From: Acetobacteraceae bacterium
Lineage (GTDB): Bacteria; Pseudomonadota; Alphaproteobacteria; Acetobacterales; Acetobacteraceae
Assembly (NCBI GenBank): GCA_025360065.1
Contig: JANYCX010000082.1
Coordinates: 1 to 32,334 of the forward strand
Direction of reading: 5' to 3'
Length of the DNA stretch: 32,334 bases
The position numbers and the translations under genes were made by a program. The notes beneath the pieces were generated by a model. That model had not been told where the DNA came from and made no database searches. It saw nothing but the letters and a program-made list of their open reading frames with translations. Positions 8,371 to 29,622 of this stretch are shown in pieces (within the stretch, counting starts at the first letter, position 1; every line of letters starts with the position of its first letter).

Positions 8371-8844
8371 CTATACCTCGCGCCATATCTTGCCGCGCTT
8401 GCGCACCGGATCGAGCAGCGCCCAGTCGCCCTGCGGCAGGGTATGGCCCTTGGGAAAGGGTGGGCGCGGCTCCATGCCCAGCGAGATCATCACCCGGTCA
8501 TCGCGGTAGTAGCATTGCAGGATGATGCGCCCGAGCGCAGTGAGGTCTGCGCCACCCTCGGCGCGCAGTGTGGCGCAGGATTCTTCCTGTTTTTCGATGT
8601 CGAGGTCAGCAAGACTGCCGCCTGAGATGCGCTCAAGCTGCGCGAGCGCGCGGTGCACGGCAGCCGCGTCACGGTCCAGGCTTTTGGCGATATCGGCCTG
8701 AATCAGCGCATCATCGGCGCCGGGGACCTTGAATTCGGCGCTCGCCGGGATCATCCGGGCGCACAACGCGGCCAGGCTGCGCTTTTCGGCGTCGGACAGG
8801 ATGGGATCGCCCCAGGCGGGCAAGGGTGCGGCGGCTTTGGACAT
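8371..8844 (-). CDS. Gluconate 2-dehydrogenase subunit 3-like small subunit
   Basis: This 157-residue protein resembles the Gluconate_2-dh3 family (PF13618), the small subunit that accompanies GMC-type FAD dehydrogenases. The pattern ILSDAEKRSLAALCARMIPA near residues 15-34 matches the family opening (L...E...L..L.d.iiPa), and a helical middle leads to RIILQCYYRDDRVMISLG and a C-terminal GKIWREV. The ATG at 8844 has GAGG nine bases upstream; a TTG five codons earlier overlaps the GMC stop and is less likely. Family members usually carry a twin-arginine signal that exports the complex; none is visible here. It lies 11 bp behind the third GMC gene, strongly suggesting it serves one or all three. 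Confidence 0.8.
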   Translation of the reverse strand: MSKAAAPLPAWGDPILSDAEKRSLAALCARMIPASAEFKVPGADDALIQADIAKSLDRDAAAVHRALAQLERISGGSLADLDIEKQEESCATLRAEGGADLTALGRIILQCYYRDDRVMISLGMEPRPPFPKGHTLPQGDWALLDPVRKRGKIWREV

Positions 8845-8855
8845 GGCGGAGATCC

Positions 8856-10466
8856 TCAATCGAACAATGTGGCCAGGCGCTGCTTCATCTGGTCGGCGAT
8901 GTAGAGTGCGAGGGCCTGGATGGTGGAGGTCGGGTTGACGCCGCCCGAGGTGGTGAAGATCGAGCCATCGACGATGAACAAATTCTTCACGTCATGGCTG
9001 CGGCCCCAGTCATTGACCACCGACCGCGTCGGGTCGCTGCCCATGCGGGCGGTGCCCAGCAAATGCCAGCCGCCGTTCCGGATGGGTTTTTCCACCCCGA
9101 TATCCCAGGCGCCGGCTTCGCGCAGGGCCTCGGTGGCGCGCGCGATGGCGTGGTCGAGCATGCGGTTGGAGTTTTCCGACAGCGTGTAGTCGATCTTGGG
9201 CGCAGGGATGCCGTTTGCGTCTTTCAGCACCGGGTCCAGGGTGACGCGGTTATGTTCCTCGGGCAGGTCCTCGCAGATCGCGGCGATGTTCATCCGGTGA
9301 TTGTGCAGCTTGCGATAGACCGCATGATGCTCGGCCCCCCACGGCAGGCGGCCGGAGGCGAAGCTCTGCTGGGCTTCCATAATGGCGCCAACGCCACGGC
9401 CGAACTGCCAGGAATAGCCGCGCACGAAGCCGCGCGACTGATCGGATTCGTAGAATTCGTGGCTCCACAGCGATAGCGGCGGGCCGCGATTGCCGTCGGT
9501 TTCCTCGTTAAAATAGCCCCAGACGCTGGCGTAGGGATGAAACATCAGGTTCTTGCCGACCAGACCTGACGAATTGGCCAGCCCGTTCGGGAAGCGCTCC
9601 GATTTCGAGTTCAGCAACAGCCTTGGGGTGCCGATGCCATTGGCGGCCACGACCACGACATGGGCAGGCTGGAACTGCTCGACCCCATCGCGATCATAGT
9701 AAATCACGCCATTGGCCATGCCGGTGGCGTTGTCGATGGTGATCTCGCGCACCCGTGCCCTGGTGCGCAATTCCACCCCGGCGCGGATGGCGGCCGGCCA
9801 ATAGGTGATGTCGGTGCTGGCCTTGGCGCCCTGGGCACAGCCGGCGATGCAGTGGCCGAGATTGATGCAGGGCGCGCGGCCTTCATACTCGCGGGTGGTC
9901 ACCGCGCAGTCACTCGGCCACCAGTGCCAGCCCAGGCGGTTCATCGCCTCGCCCAATATGCGGCCCGAGCGCCCCATTGGCAGCGGCTCCATCGGCGAGG
10001 TTTTCTGCGGCGGATAGGCGGGGTCCCCGGCCAGGCCGGAAACCCCGGTCATGCGGTCATTCTCGGCGAAGAACGGCTCCAATTGGTGATAGTCGATCGG
10101 CCAGTCATCGGCCACGCCATCGAGTGATTTCACCTTGAAATCGGACGGGTGCAGGCGCGGGTAATGCGCGGCGTAGAGAATGGTGCTGCCGCCGACAGCA
10201 TTGAAGTTCAGCACCTTGATCGGCGAATTATCGTCATTGACCGGATAATCCGACCAGAGCTGGCGGCGGTTCGGGGACGTCGCCATGTCGTTGAACTGGC
10301 GCGCCTCCCAATCGCGGCCATTGGACGGATAATCGGTGGGGTTTTGCCAATCTCCCTGTTCAAGACACAGGATTTTCATCTTGGTATCGGCCAGGCTCCA
10401 GGCCACGGCGGCACCGGAGGCACCCGAGCCGATGATGAGCACGTCAACAGGTTCGTGACTGGGCAT
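8856..10466 (-). CDS. GMC-family FAD-dependent oxidoreductase, copy 1
   Basis: This 536-residue flavoprotein dehydrogenase belongs to the gluconate/sorbitol dehydrogenase-like branch and would oxidise an alcohol or aldose-type hydroxyl. The FAD dinucleotide motif GSGASGAA is at residues 13-20. The active-site pair is His468 in HLLGTARMG and Asn511 in GGVNPTSTIQ. Cysteines 200, 206 and 210 (C-x5-C-x3-C in GRAPCINLGHCIAGCAQG) resemble the [3Fe-4S]-binding loop of bacterial FAD-glucose dehydrogenase; that reading is inference. No signal peptide is seen. It lies last of three tandem paralogues and is 14 bp from copy 2, followed by the small subunit. Substrate unknown. Confidence 0.93.
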   Translation of the reverse strand: MPSHEPVDVLIIGSGASGAAVAWSLADTKMKILCLEQGDWQNPTDYPSNGRDWEARQFNDMATSPNRRQLWSDYPVNDDNSPIKVLNFNAVGGSTILYAAHYPRLHPSDFKVKSLDGVADDWPIDYHQLEPFFAENDRMTGVSGLAGDPAYPPQKTSPMEPLPMGRSGRILGEAMNRLGWHWWPSDCAVTTREYEGRAPCINLGHCIAGCAQGAKASTDITYWPAAIRAGVELRTRARVREITIDNATGMANGVIYYDRDGVEQFQPAHVVVVAANGIGTPRLLLNSKSERFPNGLANSSGLVGKNLMFHPYASVWGYFNEETDGNRGPPLSLWSHEFYESDQSRGFVRGYSWQFGRGVGAIMEAQQSFASGRLPWGAEHHAVYRKLHNHRMNIAAICEDLPEEHNRVTLDPVLKDANGIPAPKIDYTLSENSNRMLDHAIARATEALREAGAWDIGVEKPIRNGGWHLLGTARMGSDPTRSVVNDWGRSHDVKNLFIVDGSIFTTSGGVNPTSTIQALALYIADQMKQRLATLFD

Positions 10467-10480
10467 GCGCCTGGGGTTCC

Positions 10481-12079
10481 CTATTCGAACAGCGTGTCGA
10501 GCCGCTGTTTCATCTGATCGGCAATATAGAGCGCGATGGCTTGGATGGTCGAGGTCGGGTTCAAACCGCCGCCAGTGACGAAGACCGAGCCGTCGATGAC
10601 AAACAGGTTCTTCACATCGTGGCTGCGGCCCCAGGCATTGACCACCGAGCGTGCGGGGTCGGTGCCCATGCGCGCGGTGCCCAGAAGATGGCCGGGATAG
10701 TTCAGCACGTCACGCGAACAAGCGATGGTGTGGGCGCCGGCCGCGCGCATGATCTCGGTGGCGCGCGCAATGCCGTGTTCCATCATACGGGCGGTGTTGT
10801 CCGACATTGTGTAGTCGATGCGCGGGGCGGGAATGCCGTGCGCGTCCTTCAGCACCGGGTCGAGGGTGATCCGGTTATGCGCCTCCGGCAGATCGTCGCA
10901 GGCCACCCCGACATGGAAGCGATGGTTGGCAAACCGGCGCATCGCGGCGTGGTGGCCCGCCCCCCATGGGATGCGTCCAGCTTCCACGCCCGACATCGCC
11001 TCGCCCACCGGGCCGGCGCCGCGGCCGAATTGCAACATGTAGCCGCGCACGAAGTCGCGGGCGGGGTCGGTTTCGTAGAATTGCTTACTCCAGATCGAGA
11101 CAAGGGGGCCGCGCTGGCCGTCCATCTCGTCATCGAACCAACCGTGGATGATCGGCCAGGGATGCAGCATCAGGTTGCGCCCGACAAGACCTGAGGAATT
11201 GGCCAGTCCGTTTGGAAAACAATCTGATTTCGAGTTCAGTAACAGCCTTGGAGTGCCGATGCCGTTGGCCGCCATGACAACCACATGCGCGGGCTGGAAC
11301 ACTTCGCGCCCGTCACGATCATAGTAGATCGCGCCCGTGGCCATGCCGTCCGGGCCGATTGTGATTTCGCGCACCCGGCAGTTGGTCCGCAATTCCACCC
11401 CGGCGCGGATTGCCACTGGCCAATAGGTGATGTCGGTGCTGCCCTTGGCGCCCTGGGCGCAGCCGGGCAGGCAATGGCCGAGATTGATGCAGGGCGCGCG
11501 GCCATCATGCTCGACCGTGGCGATCGCGGCGCCCGACGGCCACCAATGCCAGCCCAGCCGGTTCATTGTCTCGCCAGCCCTGGTGCCGGACCGGCCGAGC
11601 GGGACTGGCGGCATTGGCATTGTGTGGGGCGGAAAGCCCGGGTCACCCGCCAGCCCGGCCACGCCCATCATTTGGTCGTTCTGGGCAAAGAACGGCTCCA
11701 GCACGGCGTAATCGATCGGCCAGTCATCGGCGACGCCATCGAGCGATTTCACCCGGAAATCGCTGGGATGCAGGCGCGGGAAATGGGCCGCGTAATGCAC
11801 CGTGCCACCCCCGACGGCGTTAAAATTGGCGATCTTCACGATCGAATTGGCATCGTTGATCGGATAATCGGCTGGAAGCTGACGCCGGTTGGCCATGATG
11901 TCGGCATCGCCGTAGCGCCGCGCCTCCCAATCCCGGCCATTGGCGGGATAGTCGGTGGGCTTCACCCAGTCACCTTGTTCGAGGCAGACGATGCGCATCT
12001 TGGTGTCCGCCATCGACCACGCGAAAGCTGCCCCCGACGCGCCGGAACCGATGATCAGGATGTCGACGGGATCGGTCAT
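10481..12079 (-). CDS. GMC-family FAD-dependent oxidoreductase, copy 2
   Basis: This 532-residue protein is co-linear with copies 1 and 3 over its whole length. The FAD motif GSGASGAA is at 11-18, the Cys triad at 197, 203 and 207, catalytic-type His464 in GHLLGTARMG, and Asn507 in GGLNPTSTIQ. Differences from copy 1 cluster in segments likely to line the substrate pocket, such as residues 59-90, 145-170 and 325-385. This suggests divergence of specificity rather than recent duplication. The gene starts 5 bp after the copy 3 stop with no clear Shine-Dalgarno, so it probably depends on ribosomes leaving copy 3. No export signal. Confidence 0.93.
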   Translation of the reverse strand: MTDPVDILIIGSGASGAAFAWSMADTKMRIVCLEQGDWVKPTDYPANGRDWEARRYGDADIMANRRQLPADYPINDANSIVKIANFNAVGGGTVHYAAHFPRLHPSDFRVKSLDGVADDWPIDYAVLEPFFAQNDQMMGVAGLAGDPGFPPHTMPMPPVPLGRSGTRAGETMNRLGWHWWPSGAAIATVEHDGRAPCINLGHCLPGCAQGAKGSTDITYWPVAIRAGVELRTNCRVREITIGPDGMATGAIYYDRDGREVFQPAHVVVMAANGIGTPRLLLNSKSDCFPNGLANSSGLVGRNLMLHPWPIIHGWFDDEMDGQRGPLVSIWSKQFYETDPARDFVRGYMLQFGRGAGPVGEAMSGVEAGRIPWGAGHHAAMRRFANHRFHVGVACDDLPEAHNRITLDPVLKDAHGIPAPRIDYTMSDNTARMMEHGIARATEIMRAAGAHTIACSRDVLNYPGHLLGTARMGTDPARSVVNAWGRSHDVKNLFVIDGSVFVTGGGLNPTSTIQAIALYIADQMKQRLDTLFE

Positions 12080-12084
12080 GGCGC

Positions 12085-13689
12085 CTACTCGAACAATGTG
12101 GCCAAACGCTGCTTCATCTGATCGGCGATGTAGAGCGCGAGGGCTTGAATGGTGGAGGTCGGGTTAACCCCGCCGGCGGTGACGAACAGGCTGCCATCGA
12201 CAACGAACAGGTTCTTCACATCATGGGCGCGGCCCCATTCATTGACCACCGAATTCGTGGGGTCGGCGCCCATGCGGGCGGTGCCGAGATTGTGAAAGCC
12301 GGACAGCGGGATCGGGTCAACCACCGAAATGTCATGCGCGCCGGCGGTGGCGAGCAGCAGGCGCGCCTTGTCGATCGCGTGGTGGATCATACGGCGGCTG
12401 TTGTCGCCGATGGTGTAGTCGATTTTCGGCGCCGCGATGCCGTGGCTGTCGGTCAGCACTGGATCGAGGGTGACGCGGTTATGCGCCTCCGGCAGGTCGT
12501 CCACCACGATCGACAGATTGAGGCGGCGATAATGCAGGCGGCGGAACACCGCGTGATGCGCACCGCCCCAGGGCAGGCGGCCATGTTCGAAGCTGGTGGT
12601 CGCCTCCACCACCGGGCCGGCACCGCGGGCGATCTGGAAGATGTAGCCGCGCTTGAAATCGCGTGCCGGGTCGGTCTCGTAAAATTCATGGCTCCACAGC
12701 GACAGCGGCGGGCCGCGATTGCCGTCTACCTCCTGATCGACATAGCCGTAGACCGAAACATAGGGGTGCAGCATCAGGTTGCGGCCAAGCTGGTCGGACG
12801 AATTGGCCAGCCCATTGGGGTGGCGGGCGCTGGCCGAGGCCAGCAGCAGGCGGGGCGTGCCGATGCCGTTGCAGGCGACGACGACGACATGGGCGGCCTG
12901 GAAGCAAAGCTCGCCGGTGGCGTCGTAATACTCGGCCCCGGTCGCCATACCGTCATCGCCGGTGGTGATGCGGCGCACCCGGCAATGGGTGCGCAGTTCC
13001 ACCCCGGCGCGGATGGCGCGCGGCCAGTAGGTGATGTCCACGCTCGCCTTGGCGCCCTGGGCACAGCCGGGGGTGCAGTGGGCGAGGTTGATGCATTTCG
13101 CCCGGCCGTCATATGCTTCGGTGGCGGCGGTGTTGTCCGATGGCCACCAGTGCCAACCCAACTGGTTGAAGGCCTTGCCCCACACCGCGCCAGAGCGGCC
13201 GAGGGCGTGCGGCGGCATTTGCGGGATTTTGCCGGGGGGATAGGCCGGGTCTCCGGCGAGGCCCGAGACCCCCATCATGCGGTCATTGAGATCGTAGAAC
13301 GGGGCAAGCTGGGCGTAGCTGACCGGCCAGTCCTGGCCAACACCATCGAGCGTGCGGGTGCGGAAGTCGCTGGGATGCAGGCGCGGCCAGTGGGCGGTGT
13401 ACATGATGGTGCCACCGCCAACGCCGTTAAAGTTCAGGATCTTGATCGGCGAGGCATCATCGTTGACCGGGTAATCTTCGGGGCGGCCACGGCGGTTGGG
13501 GCTGGGCGAAAAGTCGCCAGTGGCGCGGGCTTCCCAGTCGCGGTCATTGGCGGGGTAGTCAGTGGGTTTCATCCAGCCGCCCTGTTCGAGGCAGACGATG
13601 CGCATTTTGGTGTCGGCGAGCGACCATGCCATCGCCGCCCCCGATGCGCCGGCGCCGATGATCAGGATGTCGACGATGCTATCGGTCAT
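12085..13689 (-). CDS. GMC-family FAD-dependent oxidoreductase, copy 3 (first in operon)
   Basis: This 534-residue protein is the promoter-proximal member of the GMC tandem array. The FAD motif reads GAGASGAA at 12-19, the Cys triad is 199, 205 and 209 in KCINLAHCTPGC, the active-site His466 lies in FHNLGTARMG, and Asn509 in GGVNPTSTIQ. It ends IADQMKQRLATLFE like its paralogues. Its ATG overlaps, as ATGA, the stop of a short upstream frame whose last residues resemble the GMC C-terminus, which supports loss of a fourth copy. Substrate is unknown; the absence of a visible signal peptide suggests a cytoplasmic location or export in complex with another subunit. Confidence 0.93.
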   Translation of the reverse strand: MTDSIVDILIIGAGASGAAMAWSLADTKMRIVCLEQGGWMKPTDYPANDRDWEARATGDFSPSPNRRGRPEDYPVNDDASPIKILNFNGVGGGTIMYTAHWPRLHPSDFRTRTLDGVGQDWPVSYAQLAPFYDLNDRMMGVSGLAGDPAYPPGKIPQMPPHALGRSGAVWGKAFNQLGWHWWPSDNTAATEAYDGRAKCINLAHCTPGCAQGAKASVDITYWPRAIRAGVELRTHCRVRRITTGDDGMATGAEYYDATGELCFQAAHVVVVACNGIGTPRLLLASASARHPNGLANSSDQLGRNLMLHPYVSVYGYVDQEVDGNRGPPLSLWSHEFYETDPARDFKRGYIFQIARGAGPVVEATTSFEHGRLPWGGAHHAVFRRLHYRRLNLSIVVDDLPEAHNRVTLDPVLTDSHGIAAPKIDYTIGDNSRRMIHHAIDKARLLLATAGAHDISVVDPIPLSGFHNLGTARMGADPTNSVVNEWGRAHDVKNLFVVDGSLFVTAGGVNPTSTIQALALYIADQMKQRLATLFE

Positions 13690-13748
13690 GGCGCGCGATC
13701 TAACACGATGTCCGGGTGCTGCTCCACCTGATCGGCGATGGACAGTGT
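13686..13748 (-). pseudogene. Relic of a fourth GMC oxidoreductase (C-terminal tail)
   Basis: Read on the minus strand this gives TLSIADQVEQHPDIVLDRAP then a stop. Compare the C-termini of the three intact GMC proteins, ALYIADQMKQRLATLFE. The DNA shows the same relation: the bases encoding IADQ and the following GCAGC are shared, and the block sits directly before the ATG of copy 3, just as each copy precedes the next. The final codons have drifted, the stop has moved so that it overlaps the next start (ATGA), and nothing GMC-like is visible upstream. The frame remains open to 13871 (61 codons) but that upstream part is unlike any GMC protein. The match is short. Confidence 0.55.
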
Positions 13749-13987: not shown

Positions 13988-15589
13988 ATGAAGCGCCGCC
14001 AACTTCTTTCCGCCGCCACCGCCGGTACCGCCCTGTCGGCGCTGCCGCAATTGGCAAGACCCGCCTTGGCCCAAGGTGGCAGCAACCCACGGGTGTTGCG
14101 CTTTGTGCCGCATGCCGATCTGGCCAACCCCGATCCCATCTGGTCCACCACGACGGTTGCCGCGATGCACGGCTTTATGGTGTGGGACTGGCTTTATGGC
14201 CTGGACGAAAAATTCCTGCCGCATCCGCAGATGGTCGGACGCGAGGAAATCACCGATGACGGCCTGACCTGGACGCTGACCCTGCGTGAGGGGCTGGTGC
14301 ATCATGACGGCGAAAAGGTGCGCGCCACTGACGCCGTCGCCTCCATCGGACGCGCCGCGCGCCGCCAGCCGCTGGTGGAAACCCTGATGAACGCGACCAA
14401 CGAGTTGGCAGCGCTCGACGACAACCGGCTGCGCTTCCGGTTGAAGAAGAAATTTTCATTGCTGCCTTATGCTCTTGCCGGCATCCCGATCATGCCCGAG
14501 CGGATCGCCAAGACCGATGCCTTCACCCAGATCAGCGAGTATGTCGGCAGCGGGCCGTACAAATTCGTGCGCGACGAATGGAAGGCCGGCGCCGGGGCGG
14601 TCTATGCCCGCCACGACAAATATGTGCCGCGCGCCGAGCCGATCAGCATGTGGGCCGGCGGCAAAACCACGTTCTTCGATCGCGTCGAATGGACAACGAT
14701 GCCCGATCCGTCCACCGCCGCGGCAGCCTTGCAGCGTGGTGAAATCGACTGGCTGGACGGCCCGCTGATTGATCTGGTGCCGCAGTTGCGCAAGGCCAAC
14801 GGGGTGAAGGTTGAACTGTTCGACCAGCTTGGTAACTTGATGTCGTTGTTCTTCAACCATTATCAGCCACCCTTCGACAATGTGAAATTGCGCCGCGCGG
14901 TGATCGCGGCGATCAGCCAGCAGGACTTTGTGGACGCGGTGTTGGGCGACCAGCAGAAGGACCTCGGCGGGATCAATGTCGGGGTGTTCCCACCGGCCTC
15001 GCCCTATGCGAGCAAAGCCGGGCTGGAGGTGCTGACCGGACCGCGCGACCTGGCCGCCGCGCGCAAGATGGTGGCCGAGAGCGGTTACAAGGGCGAGCTG
15101 ATTGTGCTGATGTCGCCCACCGAAATCGCCTCGATCCGGCAATCTTCGCTGGTCGCGGAATCGGTGCTGAAATCGCTCGGGCTGAACGTGCAACTGGCCA
15201 GCATGGATTGGGGCACCATGATCCAGCGGCGCAATAGCCGCGAGCCGGTCGAAAAGGGCGGATGGAGCTGCTACACCACGTCGTGGACTGGGCTGTCGAT
15301 CAACACCCCGGCGACCCATCTGCCGCTGCGCGCCAATGGTGCGGCCGCTGGCGCATGGTGGCGCCCGACCGATCCGGAGCTGGAAAGACTGCGCGACACC
15401 TGGTTCGACGCGCCCGATCTGGCGGCACAGAAGCGCATCGCCGAAGATATTCAGCGCCGCGCACTGAACGAGGCCGCGTTCGTGCCGCTTGGCCTGCAAT
15501 TCCAGCCAACCGCGTTCCGCAACACCCTGACCGGCTTCGCACGGTCCGGCTTCGCGGTGTTCTGGGGCGTGCGCAAGGTGAGCGCCTGA
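13988..15589 (+). CDS. Orphan peptide/nickel-type solute-binding protein (family 5) with Tat-like signal
   Basis: This 533-residue periplasmic receptor of the SBP_bac_5 family is the only large plus-strand gene in the left half. The start at 13988 has AGGAG seven bases upstream and begins MKRRQLLSAATAGTALSALP, with a twin-arginine-like n-region and a hydrophobic core ending ALAQG. A frame extension to 13907 has no support. Conserved blocks include HPQMVGREEITDDGLTWTLT, LREGLVHHDGEKVRATD, VGSGPYKFVRDEW and KLRRAVIAAISQQDFVDAVL. No permease or ATPase follows it. It may feed either of the two complete importers nearby. It is divergent from the GMC operon, which suggests shared control. Confidence 0.93.
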   Translation: MKRRQLLSAATAGTALSALPQLARPALAQGGSNPRVLRFVPHADLANPDPIWSTTTVAAMHGFMVWDWLYGLDEKFLPHPQMVGREEITDDGLTWTLTLREGLVHHDGEKVRATDAVASIGRAARRQPLVETLMNATNELAALDDNRLRFRLKKKFSLLPYALAGIPIMPERIAKTDAFTQISEYVGSGPYKFVRDEWKAGAGAVYARHDKYVPRAEPISMWAGGKTTFFDRVEWTTMPDPSTAAAALQRGEIDWLDGPLIDLVPQLRKANGVKVELFDQLGNLMSLFFNHYQPPFDNVKLRRAVIAAISQQDFVDAVLGDQQKDLGGINVGVFPPASPYASKAGLEVLTGPRDLAAARKMVAESGYKGELIVLMSPTEIASIRQSSLVAESVLKSLGLNVQLASMDWGTMIQRRNSREPVEKGGWSCYTTSWTGLSINTPATHLPLRANGAAAGAWWRPTDPELERLRDTWFDAPDLAAQKRIAEDIQRRALNEAAFVPLGLQFQPTAFRNTLTGFARSGFAVFWGVRKVSA

Positions 15590-21693: not shown

Positions 21694-22797
21694 TCAGACA
21701 AATCTGCCTGGGTCCACCATCGCCAGCACCTCGGGCGAATACCCTGTGTTGGTGCCCATCACCAGCGCCGCGACCAACGCACCCACCGCCGGCGAGGTCT
21801 GGATGCCGTAACCGCCCTGCCCCAGGCAGCAGAAATAGCCATCCCCGGCTTTGCCCAATGCCAGGCTACCATCCGGGGTAAAAGTGCGTAAGCCGGCCCA
21901 ACTGCGTTCGACCCGCGTGACCGCGATATCAAGCGCGGTGGTCATGTGGTCGATGGCAACCGCGACATCGAATTCATCGGGCTGGATATCCTGCGGCGGC
22001 ACCGGGGTCGCGTCGGCTGGCGACACCATCAGCCGGGTGCGGGCTTCCGGCCGGCAATACCAGCCGCCATCGGCAGCCATCACGAACGGCCAGTCGGCGA
22101 CCTGCCACGGCGCGGGATCGATGATGACGCCAGTGCGGCGCTTGGGCACCAGCCCGAGCAGTGCCATCCCGGCCTGGGCCGCAACCGCATCCCCCCAGGC
22201 GCCGGCGGCGTTAACCAGAATGGGGGCGGCGAAACTTGCGCCACCGGTGACCTCGACATGCCACAGCCCGGCGCGACGTTCGATGCGCATCGAACGGCTT
22301 CGCAGCGCCAAGGTGCCGCCATTGCGCCGCGCCTGCCGCAGAAATCCCTGGTGCAGGACTGCAACATCAATGTCGAACACATCGGCTTCCACCGCTGCGC
22401 GAATTGCGTAGCCATCGCGCAAGGCGGGAACCAGGGCTTTGGTTTCGGCGATAGAGATTTCGCGGATGCCGACGCCATCTGCGAGCATCGCATCAAGCTC
22501 GCTAACCTGATCGGCGGGCGCGAGATAGACATTCATCCGTCGCCGCAGGATCGGCGTTTCGGTGAAGCCGGCGGGCGGGTTTTCCAGGAAATCGCGCGAA
22601 GCCCCGGTCAGCGCGCGGACATCCGGCGGGCCGTAATTGAGAATCCAACTCGCCGCCGACCGGCCGGTTGAATGATAGCCGGCAGCTTCCTCGGCTTCGA
22701 TCAGCGCAATGCGGTGGGTGGGGGCAAGGGCTGCGGCGACAGTCGCGCCCGCGATGCCGGCGCCGATGACGATGGCGTCAATTTTTACGGTGTCCAT
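21694..22797 (-). CDS. DAO-family FAD-dependent oxidoreductase, D-arginine dehydrogenase (DauA)-like
   Basis: This 367-residue flavoenzyme is predicted to oxidise a D-amino acid or similar amine to an imino acid that hydrolyses to a keto acid and ammonia. The FAD motif GAGIAGA is at 12-18. The stretch GYHSTGRSAA (40-49), DIDVAVLHQGFLRQARRNGG, LVNAAGAWGDAVA, GLVPKRRTGVII, SWAGLRTF and GQGGYGIQT closely follow Pseudomonas D-arginine dehydrogenase as I remember it. His42, Arg221 and Arg304 match its substrate-carboxylate and active-site positions. The acidic residue that gives preference for cationic arginine is not evident; the region reads ILRRRMNVYL. The gene starts 3 bp after DctM, implying that the TRAP system imports its substrate. 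Confidence 0.88.
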   Translation of the reverse strand: MDTVKIDAIVIGAGIAGATVAAALAPTHRIALIEAEEAAGYHSTGRSAASWILNYGPPDVRALTGASRDFLENPPAGFTETPILRRRMNVYLAPADQVSELDAMLADGVGIREISIAETKALVPALRDGYAIRAAVEADVFDIDVAVLHQGFLRQARRNGGTLALRSRSMRIERRAGLWHVEVTGGASFAAPILVNAAGAWGDAVAAQAGMALLGLVPKRRTGVIIDPAPWQVADWPFVMAADGGWYCRPEARTRLMVSPADATPVPPQDIQPDEFDVAVAIDHMTTALDIAVTRVERSWAGLRTFTPDGSLALGKAGDGYFCCLGQGGYGIQTSPAVGALVAALVMGTNTGYSPEVLAMVDPGRFV

Positions 22798-22800
22798 CGG

Positions 22801-24144
22801 TCATTTGTAGACCATATGCGGCAGCCACATGGCAATATCGGGCACGATGGTCAGGATCACCACGGCCAACGTCATTAGCAGCACGAAGGGCAGCGTGCCC
22901 CAGATAATCGCGCCCAGGCCGATATCCGGCGCCACCCGGTTGATGACGAAAATATTCAGCCCGACCGGCGGATGGATTAGGCCCATTTCCATTACCACCA
23001 CCATCACCACCCCGAACCAGATCAGATCGAAGCCTGCCGCCCGCAGCGGTGGCAGGATGATCGGCGCGGTCATCAGGATGATCGACACCGGTGGCAGGAA
23101 GAATCCCAACACCACCACCAGCAGCAAGATCGCAGTCAAAAGCAGATATTTTGACAAATGCAGGCCGACGATCCAGCCAGCGGCGGCCTGGCTGATATGG
23201 AGGTAGCTCATCACGTAGCTATACAGCAGGCTCATCCCGATGATCATCAGCAGCATGCCCGACTCGCCGAGCGTGCCGTTGAAGATCGGGATGATGTCGG
23301 CGGGCTTGTAGGCACCGTACACCACCGCGACCAGCGCCAGCGCCATGATCGCGCCGAGGCCGGCGGTTTCGCTCGGGGTCGCAATGCCGCCGTAAAGTGC
23401 CACCATCACCCCGGTCAGCAGGATCAGGAATGGCAATACCCGGGGCAGCGCAGACCAGCGCTCGGCTTGGGTGTATTTTTCGTCGAACAGGATCGGGCTG
23501 ACCTCGCCCCCGGCATCGCGCACAGCTTCGGCGCGGCGATATTCGTAACGCCAACGATAAGCGGCGTAAACCGCGAAGAGCGCGATCAGCAGCAGCCCTG
23601 GGCCAAGCCCTGCCAGGAATAATTGCCCGAGCGATAACTCGGCGCGCACCGCGTAGAGAATAAGCACAATCGACGGCGGCAGCAGGATGCCCAGCGTGCC
23701 GCCCGCCGCAACCAGCCCGGCCGCAAACCCTGGCGAATAGCCGCGCTTGCGCATTTCCGGAATGCCGGATGACCCGATGGCCGAACAGGTTGCCGGCGAC
23801 GATCCCGCCATCGCGGCGAACAGACCGCAGGCAAACACCACCGCCACCCCCAAGCCCCCAGGCACCTTATGCAGCCAGACATGCAGCGCGTCGTACAAAT
23901 CCTTGCCGGCGCGCGACTTGCCGATCGCCGCCCCTTTGAGGATGAACAGCGGAATTGTCAGCAAGGTAATACTGGCGAGTTCTTCATAGACATTTTGCGC
24001 AATGGTATCGACCGACGCCGCCGGCATGAAGATCATCATGAACACCGTCGCCACGCCGCCGAGCGCGAAGGCGATCGGCATGCCGGAAAACAGCATCACC
24101 ACGGTGGCGAGCCCGTATAAAACGCCAATGAGCCCCGTGCTCAT
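22801..24144 (-). CDS. TRAP transporter large permease, DctM type
   Basis: This 447-residue inner-membrane protein with about twelve hydrophobic segments is the sodium- or proton-driven pore of a TRAP importer. Signatures include VFACGLFAAMAGSSPATCSA, GTLGILLPPSIVLILYAVRA and the late HPPVGLNIFVINRVAP. A hydrophilic loop around residues 200-240 (YRWRYEYRRAEAVRDAGGEV) separates the halves and is longer than in many DctM proteins. It overlaps DctQ by 4 bp (ATGA) and is followed 3 bp later by the DauA-like gene. Confidence 0.94.
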   Translation of the reverse strand: MSTGLIGVLYGLATVVMLFSGMPIAFALGGVATVFMMIFMPAASVDTIAQNVYEELASITLLTIPLFILKGAAIGKSRAGKDLYDALHVWLHKVPGGLGVAVVFACGLFAAMAGSSPATCSAIGSSGIPEMRKRGYSPGFAAGLVAAGGTLGILLPPSIVLILYAVRAELSLGQLFLAGLGPGLLLIALFAVYAAYRWRYEYRRAEAVRDAGGEVSPILFDEKYTQAERWSALPRVLPFLILLTGVMVALYGGIATPSETAGLGAIMALALVAVVYGAYKPADIIPIFNGTLGESGMLLMIIGMSLLYSYVMSYLHISQAAAGWIVGLHLSKYLLLTAILLLVVVLGFFLPPVSIILMTAPIILPPLRAAGFDLIWFGVVMVVVMEMGLIHPPVGLNIFVINRVAPDIGLGAIIWGTLPFVLLMTLAVVILTIVPDIAMWLPHMVYK

Positions 24145-24629
24145 GGCCGCTTGCCGAACACCTGCACGCCAAGCTGCACGGTGAGCAGCCCCATGCCCAA
24201 GGTCATGCAGCCATACGGCACAAACAGCGGCGCGCCCCAGGACGATGGCGTTGTATGCCCCTCGGTCCAGGTTTCATGCAGCATTTGCCAACATTTGAAG
24301 GTGAAATAGCCGCAAAACACCGCCGACAGCAGATCGGCCAGCACCCGCCGTACCCGATCCACCGACACCGGCAGGATTTCGCGCAGCGCATCAATGCCGA
24401 CATGGCCACGCCGCGCCTGGGTCCAGGCGGCGGAGGCAAACGTCGCCCCGATCAGCAGGAACGTTGACAGTTCGTCCTGCCAGTCGCTCGGGATGGCGAG
24501 GAAATAGCGCCCGATCACTTCCCAGGTCAGCACCAACCCGGCGGCAGCGATGGCGAGCGATGACCCGAACGCCATCACCGTGTTCAACCGATCGAGCAGC
24601 GCCTGGATTGGTGCAATGACGGCGTTCAA
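24141..24629 (-). CDS. TRAP transporter small permease, DctQ type (TTG start proposed)
   Basis: This is a small inner-membrane subunit of about 162 residues with four hydrophobic segments, working with DctM. The helix FGSSLAIAAAGLVLTWEVIGRYF, the amphipathic WQDELSTFLLIGATFASAA and the C-terminal CMTLGMGLLTVQLGVQVFG are typical of DctQ. No ATG precedes the first helix closely except one giving 144 residues (24575). A TTG at 24629 overlaps the DctP stop as TTGA and restores a normal N-terminus (LNAVIAPIQALLDRLN), so it is preferred. The same frame is open to 24725, but that part overlaps DctP and looks non-coding. Confidence in the family is high, in the start moderate. Confidence 0.85.
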   Translation of the reverse strand: MNAVIAPIQALLDRLNTVMAFGSSLAIAAAGLVLTWEVIGRYFLAIPSDWQDELSTFLLIGATFASAAWTQARRGHVGIDALREILPVSVDRVRRVLADLLSAVFCGYFTFKCWQMLHETWTEGHTTPSSWGAPLFVPYGCMTLGMGLLTVQLGVQVFGKRP

Positions 24630-25654
24630 GCCGGCACGCTTTCGGCCAGTTTCAGCAAAGCGGCGCAGGCGGCATTGCGCCCGGCATAGTCGGTCCAAGC
24701 GGCTTTTTCGGCTACCACCCGCCATTTGGCCAGTGCATCGGGGTTGAAATCCTGCACCTTCACCCCGGCTTTGGCATAGATTGCGGCCAAGGCATCGTCA
24801 TCGGCTTTGGCCTGCGCCAAGCCGAACGCTTCGAGCGAGAGGCCAATTTCGGACACTGCTTTTTGCTGATCCGGGGTCAGCGCGTCATAAATCGCCTTCG
24901 ACATGATCAGCGGTTCAAGCATGAACCAGAAACTGCCGCCGCGCCCGCTGGTGACGTTCTTGGCGATCTCGTTCAGTCGGAAACTAATCAGGCTGGTCGA
25001 TGAGGTGATGGCGGCATCCAGCGACCCGGTTTGCATCGCGGCGTAGATTTCATCGGATGGCACCGACGAAATAATCCCGCCCGCTGCTTTCAGCATCAAA
25101 TCCATCTCCCGCGAGCCACCACGGATTTTCAGCCCCTTCACGTCATCGGGGGTTACCACCGCGCCGGCGCGCGAGGCGCAACCGCCGGCCTGCCAAACCC
25201 AGGTGATAATCTTGACCCCACGCTTGTCGAGCAGGGCTTCGATTTCGCGCCCGATCGCCGAGGTTTTCCACGCCATACCTTGCGCGTAGCTGGTCACCAG
25301 GCTCGGCATCAGGCCGATATTGACCTCCGGTATTTCACCGCCGGCATAAGCGAGGGGGTAGAGCGACATATCGAGCGCGCCACGGCGGACGGCGGAAAAC
25401 TGCGCCACCGTCTTCATCAACGATGAACCGGGATAGATTTCAAAGCGCAGCTCGCCCTTGGTGCGGGCTTCTACCTCGGCGGCAAAGCGACGCACCAGGC
25501 GGTCACGGAAATCACCCTGCTCGAGCGTGCCGCCGGGGAATTGGTGGCTGATCTTCAGGACTTTGGCATCAGCGCGGGCGATATTCGGGCGGAGCACGGC
25601 AGGCGCTGCCAGGGCTGCACCGAGTGCCAGGGTGTTTCGGCGTGATATGAGCAT
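24626..25654 (-). CDS. TRAP transporter solute-binding protein, DctP type
   Basis: This 342-residue periplasmic receptor starts at 25654, with GGAGG eight bases upstream. The signal is MLISRRNTLALGAALAAPAV, twin-arginine-like (SRRNTLAL), as is common for TRAP receptors. The DctP domain follows: KVLKISHQFPGG, KGELRFEIYPGSSLMKTV, and GLKIRGGSREMD around the ligand-binding arginine that clamps a carboxylate. Later come AAMQTGSLDAAITSS and the hinge region. The ligand is therefore likely an organic or amino acid. A 54-bp spacer separates it from the upstream malonyl-CoA decarboxylase gene. Confidence 0.94.
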   Translation of the reverse strand: MLISRRNTLALGAALAAPAVLRPNIARADAKVLKISHQFPGGTLEQGDFRDRLVRRFAAEVEARTKGELRFEIYPGSSLMKTVAQFSAVRRGALDMSLYPLAYAGGEIPEVNIGLMPSLVTSYAQGMAWKTSAIGREIEALLDKRGVKIITWVWQAGGCASRAGAVVTPDDVKGLKIRGGSREMDLMLKAAGGIISSVPSDEIYAAMQTGSLDAAITSSTSLISFRLNEIAKNVTSGRGGSFWFMLEPLIMSKAIYDALTPDQQKAVSEIGLSLEAFGLAQAKADDDALAAIYAKAGVKVQDFNPDALAKWRVVAEKAAWTDYAGRNAACAALLKLAESVPA

Positions 25655-25708
25655 CGATTTTTCCTCCCGATGTTGCCTCATCAGCAATTTCGTTCAAAAG
25701 CACAAGGG

Positions 25709-26968
25709 CTAGCTGGCGGAGGGCGGCAACAAAGCGGCCACCGCGGCCGAGCGGACCACAACGCCGCCGCGTGCGTAAGCCTCGTGATTTTTTTCGATCG
25801 TGTCGGGGTCATAAAGATAATTGACCATCACCCCGTAGGATTCCTGCACGCCGCGTGGCGCCGGATTGCCCATCCAGTTGATCCGTTCGAGCCGCGCGCC
25901 GTTGCCGAGATGAAAACGCGCCACCGGATCTGCCGCATTTGGCCCCGGATTGGTCAGGTACTGCGCGGCCAAGGCAATTGTTGCGGCTTCGGCGTGCGCC
26001 GGATCGGCGGGCACGTCGTCCCGCCGTTCCAGCCAACGTCGGAAGCCCGGCATCGGTGACAAAGTCGAGAACACCCGCAATTGTGGCAATTCCTGCTGCA
26101 ATTCCTCGACCACCTGCTTGATCAGAAAAGCGCCGAAGGAAATCCCGCGCAACCCGCCCTGGCAGTTGGAAATCGAGTAGAAAATCGCGGTGTCGGCCGC
26201 TTCCGGCGCCCCAAGGTCCGGTGCCAGCAGCGGCGCAATGGCACCGGCGAGGCCCTGCACGAGGGCGACTTCGACGAAGATCAGCGGATCACCCGGCAAG
26301 GCAGGATGGAAAAATCCGAAGCAGCGCCGATCAGGGGCGAGGCGACGGCGCAAATCATCCCAGCCCTGGATTTCGTGCACCGCTTCATATTGGATCAGCT
26401 TTTCCAGAACTGATGCCGGGGTGTTCCAGTCAATCCGGCGCAATTCGAGGAAGCCGCGATTGAACCAGGAGGCGAAAAGATGGCGCAAATCGGTGTCGAG
26501 TGGCGCCAAGGCTGGCTCGGCGCGCAACACCCCGAGAATTTCCTGGCGCAAGGCCACCAGCGCCGCGGTGCCGCGCGGCGCCTGGTTCATCCGACGCAAC
26601 AATTCCTGCCGGGGCGGTTCAGCGGCTTCGGCGAGCGCACTTGCCCGCGCGGGTGTCGGGTCCGCGAGATAAGCCTCCGCTGCCGCGCGCAACTGCACCG
26701 GGTCGGGGAGATACCCGTCCGCGAGATGGCGGCAGAACGCCATGCGGGCAGGCGCATCCAGCCCCTGCAGCACATCGAGCAAGGCCCTGGCCCGCGCCGC
26801 ACCTGATGCCTCGCCGCGTCCGGATAGCAGGTCCCGCGCCAGGAGAATTGCCCGCTCACCAGGGGCCACGCTATCGGCGGGCACCTCGGCATAGGCGCGG
26901 CCGCGATCGGCGATTGACGACCAGAGCCGGTCAAGCCAGTTGCGTGGACGGCGGTCGGTGGTGGACAT
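25709..26968 (-). CDS. Malonyl-CoA decarboxylase
   Basis: This 419-residue cytoplasmic enzyme converts malonyl-CoA to acetyl-CoA and carbon dioxide. The start at 26968 has GGAG ten bases upstream and gives MSTTDRRPRNWLDRLW; a longer frame lacks support. The N-terminal helical domain (1-170) precedes the acyltransferase-like catalytic domain. HPALPGDPLIFVEVAL (221-236), FYSISNCQGGLRGISFG (263-279), LSPMPGFRRWL and FHLGNGARLERINWMGN are hallmark blocks. Ser265 and His353 correspond to the catalytic Ser-His of the family. Elsewhere this gene often sits beside malonyl-CoA synthetase and a malonate carrier. No synthetase is present here. Confidence 0.93.
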   Translation of the reverse strand: MSTTDRRPRNWLDRLWSSIADRGRAYAEVPADSVAPGERAILLARDLLSGRGEASGAARARALLDVLQGLDAPARMAFCRHLADGYLPDPVQLRAAAEAYLADPTPARASALAEAAEPPRQELLRRMNQAPRGTAALVALRQEILGVLRAEPALAPLDTDLRHLFASWFNRGFLELRRIDWNTPASVLEKLIQYEAVHEIQGWDDLRRRLAPDRRCFGFFHPALPGDPLIFVEVALVQGLAGAIAPLLAPDLGAPEAADTAIFYSISNCQGGLRGISFGAFLIKQVVEELQQELPQLRVFSTLSPMPGFRRWLERRDDVPADPAHAEAATIALAAQYLTNPGPNAADPVARFHLGNGARLERINWMGNPAPRGVQESYGVMVNYLYDPDTIEKNHEAYARGGVVVRSAAVAALLPPSAS

Positions 26969-26994
26969 TGTCGCGATGCTCCGGCGGATGGCGT

Positions 26995-28320
26995 TCAGAA
27001 CTGATCGGGAAAATACCCGGCCCAGGCAAACCAATAGGCAATATGGCCGGGCAGGCGCGCCAGGGTTCTGCCGTTCGGGCCGCGCAACGCGGTCTCCTCG
27101 ATCTGCCACACCGCCCCGCCCGCGGTCAGGTGGCCGATGCCCGTGGCAGTGAAATCCTCCCCATCGCTTGCATAGGCACGAACCTCCTCGCGCGCGGCGT
27201 CGCCGATGAGCACCACGTTCTGCAAGCCGACCCGATCATTGATCACCGCGCCACCGGCGAAGCGGGTCAGCGGATAGGCTTTCACCCCGCCTTGCAGCCG
27301 CAACCCGAAAACCTTGTCCTTGGCGGCCAGCCGCCGATCGGTGAAAGCGGCGGGAAAGGCGATATCCGGACTGGCAAAATAGCTGCGATAGGCGACACCT
27401 GGTGCATAATCGCGGACAGCCCCGGTGGCGAGCGACAGCACCGTGGTGGTGGGGTGCGCCGCCTTCCAGGCCTGCCAGGTTGTTGTCACCAGCGCCAGCG
27501 GGGCCAGTTGCACCTCCGACCCAACCAGCGCGCCGATCACCGGTCGGCCGGTGAACTGGTTCCATAAACTATTGGTCTCGCGGTCGTACATCAGCTTGTT
27601 GGATCGAAACAACAGCCCCGATGAACCGAACCGAAACGGCTGGTTCCGCCCCTGCACCCGACCATCATACAAAATTGCCGACCCGCACAGGGTGCAATAG
27701 GCCAGCGAAACTGGCACACCCCCCAGCACATCGTTGACCATTTCATGCCAGGCGATGATCCGCATCGGCCAGGCCCGCGCCTGCCCGCCGATCACCGCGC
27801 CGAACACCACATCGTCGGGGTTGAGGTAGGTGGCGGCGGCTGCCGTCAGCACCGCAGGATCGTCAAGCGCGGGGATGCCATCGACCTTCACCCCGCCCCA
27901 GGTGATTTCTTCCAACCGGATCGTATGGGCGATGCCGACCCGCAGGAACCGCGAAAATTGCGGGTCTAGCCCGGTATAAAGATCGGCCAGCAGCACATCG
28001 AAGCCGATATGGGGAAGGTATTCGGGGTGATCCTGCTGCCAGACCATCCAGTCGAACCAGTCAGGGCCGGGTGACGCGCCGGTGACTTTGGTCAGAACAG
28101 CGACAATGTCGGGATAGATCGGGTCTTCGAGCCAGAACAGCATCGCAATCAAACCCGGCACCGCGCTGGGGATGGCGAGGTCGCGCAAGGCTGCGCGCTG
28201 GGCATCAACCTCCCCGGCCAACATCCGGCGCAGCGCGATATTAATGGCGGCACCATCAGCCCGTGCGCCGCTTGCAACCAACACGGCTGCCGCACTCAGC
28301 AGCATTCCGCGTCGGCGCAT
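26995..28320 (-). CDS. DUF3179 domain-containing exported protein
   Basis: This 441-residue protein of unknown function has an N-terminal signal-like stretch MRRRGMLLSAAAVLVASGAR ending near ARA-DG. The DUF3179 core is recognised by WPMRIIAWHEMVNDVLGG (184-201) followed by VSLAYCTLCGSAILYD, with paired Cys209 and Cys212, then NKLMYDRETNSLWNQFTG and DYAPGVAYRSYFASPDI. An N-terminal helical region (residues 25-130) precedes the core. The CxxC pair and exported location suggest a metal or redox role, but nothing has been established. It lies 5 bp behind the M20 gene and 26 bp before malonyl-CoA decarboxylase, so co-transcription is likely. Confidence 0.88.
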   Translation of the reverse strand: MRRRGMLLSAAAVLVASGARADGAAINIALRRMLAGEVDAQRAALRDLAIPSAVPGLIAMLFWLEDPIYPDIVAVLTKVTGASPGPDWFDWMVWQQDHPEYLPHIGFDVLLADLYTGLDPQFSRFLRVGIAHTIRLEEITWGGVKVDGIPALDDPAVLTAAAATYLNPDDVVFGAVIGGQARAWPMRIIAWHEMVNDVLGGVPVSLAYCTLCGSAILYDGRVQGRNQPFRFGSSGLLFRSNKLMYDRETNSLWNQFTGRPVIGALVGSEVQLAPLALVTTTWQAWKAAHPTTTVLSLATGAVRDYAPGVAYRSYFASPDIAFPAAFTDRRLAAKDKVFGLRLQGGVKAYPLTRFAGGAVINDRVGLQNVVLIGDAAREEVRAYASDGEDFTATGIGHLTAGGAVWQIEETALRGPNGRTLARLPGHIAYWFAWAGYFPDQF

Positions 28321-28325
28321 CGCGA

Positions 28326-29471
28326 TCAGCCTTTCAACGCGTGCCGGGCAACCCCTGCCAGGAACCCCGATGCTTGCGGAAGAATGGCGTCATTGAAATT
28401 ATAGGCGTCATTATGCAACCCGCGCCCATCGCCTTCCGGCCCGTTGCCGATCCAGACAAAGGCGCCGGGCTTTTCGTGCAGGAACCAGGAAAAATCTTCT
28501 CCGGTCATCGCCGGGCGCATGTCGGTGCGCGACGTGATCCCGTATTCGGCGCAGGCCGCAACCGCGGCGAGGCTGCCGGCTGCATGGTTCACCGTGGGGC
28601 CGATGCCGATCTGGGCGTCAACCCGCGCGGTCAGGCCGAAGGTTGCAGCGATGCCGTGGGAAATCCGGGCAATGCCATCGATCAACAGATCACGGACTTC
28701 GTTGCGGTAAAAGCGATAGGTGCCGCGCATGGTCACGCTTGACGGGATTTGGTTGGATGCCTTGCCGCCTTCGATGCTGCCAATGGTAATGACCGACGGA
28801 TCGAGCGGGTCGACGTTGCGCGATACCAATGATTGCAGCGCCACCAGCAAATGCCCCGCCGCCAGCATCGGGTCGCGGGTCAGATGCGGCAGTGCCGCGT
28901 GCCCTGCGAGACCGTCCATGATGATCTCGATCCGGCCGCCGCCGGCCATCACCGGGCCGTTATGGACCATGACGGTGCCGGCTGCGAGGCCGGGCCAATT
29001 ATGGTAGCCAAAAATCTGTTCCATCGGGAAGCGGTTGAACAACCCGTCATTGATCATCGACTGCGCCCCGCCGCCGCCTTCTTCGGCGGGCTGGAACACC
29101 AGATGCACGGTGCCGGTCCAGCTCGGGTCGGCCCGCAGCAATTCGGCCGCGCCCAGCAGGCTCACCGTATGTCCATCATGCCCGCAGGCGTGCATGACGC
29201 CGGGGGTTTTGGACGCATAGGCCAACCCGGTGGTTTCGGTGAACGGCAGCGCATCCATGTCGGCGCGCAAGCCCACCGCCCGGTTGGAATGACCACGCGA
29301 AATCGTGGCCACAACACCGTGTCCGCCAACGCCGGACGTGAACGGGATGCCCATCTCGGCCAGGCGCGCGCAGACGAAGGCGGCGGTGTTGGCTTCGTGG
29401 AGGGAGAGTTCGGGGTTGGCGTGCAAATGCTGGCGCCAGCCAACCAGTTTTTCGTGTAGCGAATTTTCCAT
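28326..29471 (-). CDS. M20 family amidohydrolase (hippurate hydrolase/N-acyl-amino acid deacylase-like)
   Basis: This 381-residue cytoplasmic metallohydrolase is predicted to release amino acids from N-acyl or aryl-acyl conjugates. Metal and catalytic positions are seen in MHACGHDGHT (Cys96, His98), the AEEGG block (Glu130, Glu131), HNWP (His157), and a C-terminal region with MTGEDFSWFLHEKPGAF and HNDAYNFND. The N-terminal WRQHLHANPELSLHE is the M20D opening. The start at 29471 follows GGAAGGTGCGCC; the frame upstream to 29516 is rejected. It is the first gene of the long minus-strand run, divergent from otsA with a 151-bp gap. Confidence 0.93.
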   Translation of the reverse strand: MENSLHEKLVGWRQHLHANPELSLHEANTAAFVCARLAEMGIPFTSGVGGHGVVATISRGHSNRAVGLRADMDALPFTETTGLAYASKTPGVMHACGHDGHTVSLLGAAELLRADPSWTGTVHLVFQPAEEGGGGAQSMINDGLFNRFPMEQIFGYHNWPGLAAGTVMVHNGPVMAGGGRIEIIMDGLAGHAALPHLTRDPMLAAGHLLVALQSLVSRNVDPLDPSVITIGSIEGGKASNQIPSSVTMRGTYRFYRNEVRDLLIDGIARISHGIAATFGLTARVDAQIGIGPTVNHAAGSLAAVAACAEYGITSRTDMRPAMTGEDFSWFLHEKPGAFVWIGNGPEGDGRGLHNDAYNFNDAILPQASGFLAGVARHALKG

Positions 29472-29622
29472 GGCGCACCTTCCCATCCTCGCAGAAAAAA
29501 TGCCAGGGGGTTTCATTAGGGCTGAAATAAGGCGGCAATACCCGATTTCCTGCCTCTATCTCGCCATGACTGTCCGGCATACATAGGTTGGTGCAATGTG
29601 CGCCTGCGTGTCCGGAGGTCCC
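29472..29622. other. Divergent intergenic region between M20 gene and otsA
   Basis: This 151-bp gap must hold the promoter of otsA (plus strand) and of the long minus-strand run from the M20 gene. GGAGG lies 4 bases before the otsA ATG. I could not pick out a convincing -35/-10 pair on either strand, and no clear inverted repeat is present. Confidence 0.4.

Follow-up and report, generated by a model that had tools for sequence, protein, structure and literature searches.

We analysed a stretch of 32,334 nucleotides from an Acetobacteraceae bacterium (assembly GCA_025360065.1, contig JANYCX010000082.1), hereafter the window, in which three GMC dehydrogenase genes stand in tandem ahead of a single small-subunit gene. 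The explanation that we favour overall, with a probability of roughly 0.55, is that this array belongs to a branch of 3Fe-4S GMC dehydrogenases lacking a twin-arginine translocation (Tat) signal, in which the small subunit would be the common partner of the copies. More tentatively, the branch could be cytosolic and free of cytochrome, with one small subunit for up to six non-redundant GMCs that carry fixed residues on their flavin and Fe-S sides, and with a soluble acceptor. The features are as follows; the names G1 to G3 and the position labels a to f (a, far end; f, next to the small subunit) were coined in this analysis, and FAD-GDH is the flavin adenine dinucleotide (FAD)-containing enzyme of B. 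cepacia.

12085..13689, reverse strand: GMC dehydrogenase G1, 534 aa, array position d (position-d clade, SH-aLRT 100), GMC_oxred_N and GMC_oxred_C; by alignment, 3Fe-4S cysteines Cys199/205/209 and His466/Asn509
10481..12079, reverse strand: GMC dehydrogenase G2, 532 aa, array position e, GMC_oxred_N and GMC_oxred_C; by alignment, His464/Asn507, and His95 where FAD-GDH has its FAD-linking His105
8856..10466, reverse strand: GMC dehydrogenase G3, 536 aa, array position f, adjoining the small subunit; by alignment, His468/Asn511
8371..8844, reverse strand: small subunit without Tat signal, 157 aa, at best a distant relative of PF13618 (gluconate 2-dehydrogenase subunit 3)
13690..13740, reverse strand: probably the decayed 3' end of another GMC copy, 51 bp, directly upstream of G1

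As the preliminary description of this DNA had it, the three full-length GMCs are co-linear, with gaps of 5 bp (G1-G2) and 14 bp (G2-G3), and the small-subunit ATG at 8844 follows G3 by 11 bp. The coordinates agree with this, and so does Pfam, GMC_oxred_N and GMC_oxred_C scoring above the cut-offs in all three proteins, which share 66.7-70.5% pairwise identity. An alternative TTG start of the small subunit at 8859 would give a 4-bp overlap with the G3 stop; we favour the ATG because in the relative L006 the small-subunit reading frame, which is in register with the GMC stop, opens with an ATG 12 bp past that stop. The source genome is a draft of 3.72 Mb in 252 contigs, 91.8% complete, of which the window is contig C4. 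It contains nine GMC_oxred_C matches, and G1-G3 are the only ones of the array type that were found.

Arrays in related genomes and the age of the copies

Genome contigs were scanned with the small subunit, and the best 80 of 194 relatives were analysed; being chosen by the small subunit, this sample says nothing on whether every GMC has one. A GMC of this type is present at all 80 loci. At least two such GMCs lie upstream of the small subunit on the same strand in 12 of them, ten of which are of the window's lineage (the others are L030 and L082). The usual arrangement in the remaining relatives, for example Bradyrhizobium and Dankookia rubra, is a single GMC with a single small subunit, often separated by 7-8 bp and sometimes with the small subunit first. 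Within the window's genus, a GMC of this type is present in all five genomes, and three of them have two or more in a row. Across the family, 43 of 299 genomes match at E ≤ 1e-150; four candidates were scored per genome, copy numbers being lower bounds, and in 7 of the 43 the matches reach only 50-56% or are otherwise partial.

The preliminary description proposed looking in other genomes for the order GMC-GMC-GMC-small subunit. L095 has three copies like the window, and the flanks fetched for the relatives' loci revealed longer arrays in sister genomes: in L084, L085, L086 and L087 a single contig bears six GMCs with one small subunit, and in L088 there are five with one. In genome G006 the pieces lie on two contigs whose broken ends share a 137-bp overlap at 100%, which gives six GMCs. 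For G004 and G005 the overlaps between contig ends are 646 and 282 bp long, at 96%; these genomes likely have six GMCs, or perhaps one more near-identical copy. L096 has two copies (d and f) and L013 one (f), and the array of the window corresponds to positions d, e and f.

Several of these loci show further peculiarities. Palindromic spacers of 112-145 bp, made of CGCCAAG repeats, part the GMC copies in L086, L087, L089 and L091 (also L090 and L092), and look as if one element had entered successive gaps; in addition, spacers of 151 bp with a different palindrome occur in L093 and L094. The CGCCAAG repeat was not found in the window, with one mismatch allowed. In genus g55, G158 (C152:5004-8640) has two GMCs ~460 bp apart, leaving a gap of small-subunit size, and G213, G300 and G276 are similar; such loci possibly have the order GMC-small subunit-GMC. 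Records of metagenome-assembled genomes titled 'Asaia bogorensis' (L005, L010, L012, L013, L015, L017 and L041) differ widely here, and the titles are probably wrong.

To place the copies, a tree of 89 GMC rows was built with a quick method, with support from the approximate likelihood-ratio test (SH-aLRT) only and a midpoint root. Positions a, b, d, e and f each form their own clade with a support of 100, as do c and d jointly; c alone is not resolved. The e branch falls among GMCs of other Acetobacteraceae, the c/d branch joins L018 and L031 (support 99), and the f/a/b branch joins L014, L098 and L099 (support 93). Since the branches of the array join different parts of the family, the copies are old. 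The window copies are 80-99% identical to the orthologues at their own position, whereas identity to copies at other positions is roughly 60-72% (75-80% for c against d); f is the most conserved, at 90-99%. The ratio of nonsynonymous to synonymous substitution rates is 0.047, 0.067 and 0.036 for d, e and f against L095, and 0.052 and 0.025 for d and f against L096. On these sequence comparisons, the paralogues are old, orthologous by position and separately conserved under purifying selection.

The 51 bp upstream of G1 are in register with GMC 3' ends. The two highest scores come from position-c copies (48 and 42, with shuffle maxima of 24 and 29); scores to other GMC copies are weaker, several at shuffle level, and L095 and L096 carry this stretch as well. 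This remnant, together with the six-gene sister arrays, suggests that upstream copies were lost rather than that the ancestor had three, and the three-gene array is thus probably a shortened descendant of a longer one.

Export signals, cytochromes and the small-subunit family

Export signals were judged by pattern, hydropathy and eye. None of the four window proteins has RR in its first 40 residues, and the FAD-binding strand starts within ~7 residues of each GMC start. A Tat signal on a corrected start was considered and rejected, there being no in-frame ATG, GTG or TTG farther upstream. By contrast, the product of the adjacent binding-protein gene, read from 13988 (+), begins with MKRRQLLSAATAGTALSALPQLARPALAQ; this divergent gene (13988-15589, +), one of three SBP_bac_5 genes in the window, has the Tat-like start MKRRQLLSAATAG.

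We also looked at the small subunits of the relatives. A start codon was assigned for 74 of the 80, the proteins beginning at most ~25 residues before the first conserved helix; among these 74, only two match RR.[FLVIMT] in the first 40 residues, both within that helix. Over the whole stop-to-stop frame there are matches in 18 of the 80; besides those two, 16 match before the start codon, in frames that mostly cross the preceding gene, and a stricter twin-arginine pattern matches two of the 80 frames. Canonical small subunits of PF13618 within the window's bacterial family served as controls, namely the best 30 loci of a PF13618 search that matched 69 of 120 genomes. Of these, 29/30 match RR.[FLVIMT], mostly followed, as judged by eye, by hydrophobic residues, and 23/30 have a GMC-like motif further on. 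The earlier observation that none of the four proteins has a visible export signal is thus borne out, but the missing Tat signal is not peculiar to the tandem arrangement: it holds across the subfamily (74 relatives against 29 of the 30 controls).

The window was also said to lack a cytochrome, and indeed no CXXCH was found in any of its stop-to-stop frames of at least 100 residues, nor any three-CXXCH frame in the window or in L084-L088. A three-CXXCH frame lies somewhere in 11 of the 80 relatives' loci, in three of them (L032, L048 and L057) near a second GMC (28% identity), and in 5/5 control loci. The small subunit belongs to a Tat-less, probably cytosolic branch whose GMCs keep the three 3Fe-4S cysteines.

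Against PF13618, the window small subunit scores 18.4-18.5 bits (E ~0.003), below the gathering cut-off of 23.4, and 16 of 50 family members scanned, the window's included, match at E ≤ 0.01, the best at 4e-5. An hhalign comparison with canonical PF13618 gives a probability of 7% (E 0.005), and the PF13618 profile has no match anywhere in the source genome at E ≤ 1. A PDB profile search with the small-subunit alignment returned weak matches only, with unrelated names (best E 0.078). The small-subunit model has a mean predicted local distance difference test score (pLDDT) of 84.3, with confident helices and low values (~51) at residues 131-140; on whether its fold is that of the FAD-GDH gamma subunit, Foldseek gave no match to the model at E ≤ 0.001, and a second look at the fold (VIA) had a best Z of 3.1 with nothing usable; the protein may belong to an unlisted family. 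Across 50 small-subunit rows, LQCYYRDDRV shows little or no variation, and the same holds for much of the C-terminal PPFPKG..GDW. The array-type small subunits form with those of L013 and L014 a clade of 13 on a long stem (support 100/99, length 0.85), which suggests that the small subunit changed considerably before or during array formation.

Residues of the GMC subunits, known systems and neighbouring genes

The 89 GMC rows were aligned with B. cepacia FAD-GDH, whose Fe-S ligands are named in the accessible part of PMC6719666. The cysteine triad of the cluster, itself predicted from sequence, is present in 89/89 rows, and the catalytic His and Asn in 88/89 each, the remaining row having a gap. 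The disulfide Cys213 of FAD-GDH is a Cys in none of the 89 rows, an absence that a reducing compartment would allow. At the site of the FAD-linking His105, His is found in position e only (9/9 relatives and G2), with Leu in a, b and f and Met in c and d. When 527 columns were compared over a-f, 203 were universal and 16 position-specific; the latter include FAD-GDH 105, 107, 219, 333 and 336 and, near the catalytic pair, 477, 515 and 522. Four of the 18 residues at the small-subunit/Fe-S face, taken from the accessible part of PMC6719666, are position-specific (hypergeometric P 0.001, indicative only, the sites having been pooled post hoc); for the named contact residues alone the figure is 2/11 (P 0.04).

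By sequence, the solved proteins nearest to the window GMCs are the alpha subunit of FAD-GDH and the large subunit of fructose dehydrogenase. The window GMCs resemble the catalytic subunit of FAD-GDH (PDB 6a2u and 8grj, alpha/gamma/beta) over their full length (~210 bits), and share its Fe-S triad (Cys212/218/222 there), its His476/Asn519 pair and a partner gene for a small subunit. They differ from it in that the small subunit has no Tat signal, no triheme cytochrome gene lies nearby, Cys213 is missing and the FAD-linking His is kept only in position e. The large subunit of fructose dehydrogenase (PDB 7w2j) is also matched over the full length (194 bits for G3, 163 bits for G1), but again the window has neither a small-subunit Tat signal nor a triheme cytochrome gene nearby. 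In the accessible part of PMC4650693, the FAD-GO glycoside oxidoreductases of Rhizobium sp. GIN611 and relatives are described with a small-subunit gene close behind the GMC gene, as in the window; compared by description, they differ in that their partner is annotated as a Tat protein.

When 32 loci were compared for conserved neighbours, nothing but the GMC, the small subunit and frames across them recurred in all; the next cluster reaches 8/32. With neighbours recurring so little, the substrate cannot be read from gene context. An aldo/keto-reductase-like gene lies beside the far end in seven loci that reach past copy a (six by clustering, L084 by eye; the call comes from a Pfam scan of the L093 protein only), and in L005 the small subunit and an aminotransferase are separated by genes for a LacI regulator and a xylose-isomerase-like protein. 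The context of the array at most hints at sugars or glycosides. The aminotransferase, TauD and cyclase genes downstream in the window recur only in L004 and L005 among 21 sources compared. Farther away, positions 21694-29516 (reverse strand) encode a DAO-type oxidoreductase, the TRAP transporter proteins DctM, DctQ and DctP, a malonyl-CoA decarboxylase, a DUF3179 protein and an M20 peptidase. The source genome also has electron-transfer flavoprotein genes, which nothing ties to the array.

A probable shared small subunit for several GMC dehydrogenases

On gene counts and phylogeny, a small subunit shared across the GMCs, as the preliminary description had envisaged, is the likeliest reading. 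Four genomes have six GMCs to one small subunit, while lone GMCs of the main branches each stand beside a small subunit of their own: L018 on the c/d side, L016, L019 and L022 on the e side, and L014 on the f side (support 93). It is this combination of 6:1 arrays with separately equipped lone relatives that supports shared use.

Several observations weigh against this reading. The scores that link the small subunit to canonical PF13618 are the weak ones given above, the two being distantly related at best. The contact residues are identical among the window copies in 5/11 cases, against 310/532 for the whole protein, and only 1 of 13 columns in segment 168-180 is universal over a-f. A read-through model of G3 and the small subunit of L006 is unusable (mean pLDDT 55.7). 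In genome G014, GMCs on contigs C39 and C69 have no small subunit detected nearby, which suggests that binding may not be obligatory. Finally, the source genome has the end of a second small-subunit gene: contig C35 (G000, L097; 1-2008) opens within its last 20 codons, and its first 2 kb are 88% identical to the end and downstream side of a GMC/small-subunit pair in G002 (C56). One small subunit for three GMCs, as first described, therefore holds at the locus but not genome-wide; apart from the extra end on C35, no dedicated small subunit per GMC was found in the 91.8% complete draft.

The G014 loci would also fit a small subunit that serves only its neighbour G3, at position f, the other copies being past needing one. 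That the small subunit of the array is grouped with its L014 counterpart, which lies beside a lone f-side GMC, that L013 retains only f and a small subunit, and that f is the most conserved copy all speak for this idea. We nevertheless consider it rather unlikely, since a small subunit does adjoin the lone relatives of branches d and e, and all aligned copies keep the Fe-S cysteines, which adjoin the small subunit in FAD-GDH. The tight tandem spacing and the 67-70% identity of the copies could alternatively reflect redundant dosage duplicates, and the preliminary description had proposed mutually interchangeable partners. This seems improbable in view of the much higher identity to positional orthologues than to other positions, the strong purifying selection and the fixed differences near the flavin, the Fe-S cluster and the active site. 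Co-linear, closely spaced genes would suit one mixed hetero-oligomer with a single small subunit as well; the copy number among related genomes is one, two, three, five or six, which is hard to square with a fixed complex, and no usable model was obtained, so that we give this idea the least credit.

Each GMC is predicted to use FAD and the His/Asn pair to oxidise a substrate of its own, perhaps a sugar or glycoside, at an alcohol group, and electrons would pass through a surface 3Fe-4S cluster to an acceptor. The single small subunit would most likely act as the common folding and Fe-S-covering partner of all three, and not as an export hitchhiker. In the accessible parts of the literature, the small subunit of the biosensor relatives is described as an export hitchhiker (PMC6719666), a GMC large and small subunit are thought to be exported by Tat (PMC8630023), and, as a precedent for sharing, co-expression of the chaperone-like small subunit of FAD-GO gave higher soluble expression of GMC enzymes of other species (PMC4650693). 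No description of a Tat-less branch or of such arrays was found in the open-licence literature searched, and one may exist elsewhere.

A branch that keeps its small subunit without an export signal would separate the hitchhiker role from folding and protection of the Fe-S cluster. Furthermore, the natural 6:1 array would offer ready paralogues in which to look for the residues that decide partner binding, flavin attachment and substrate.

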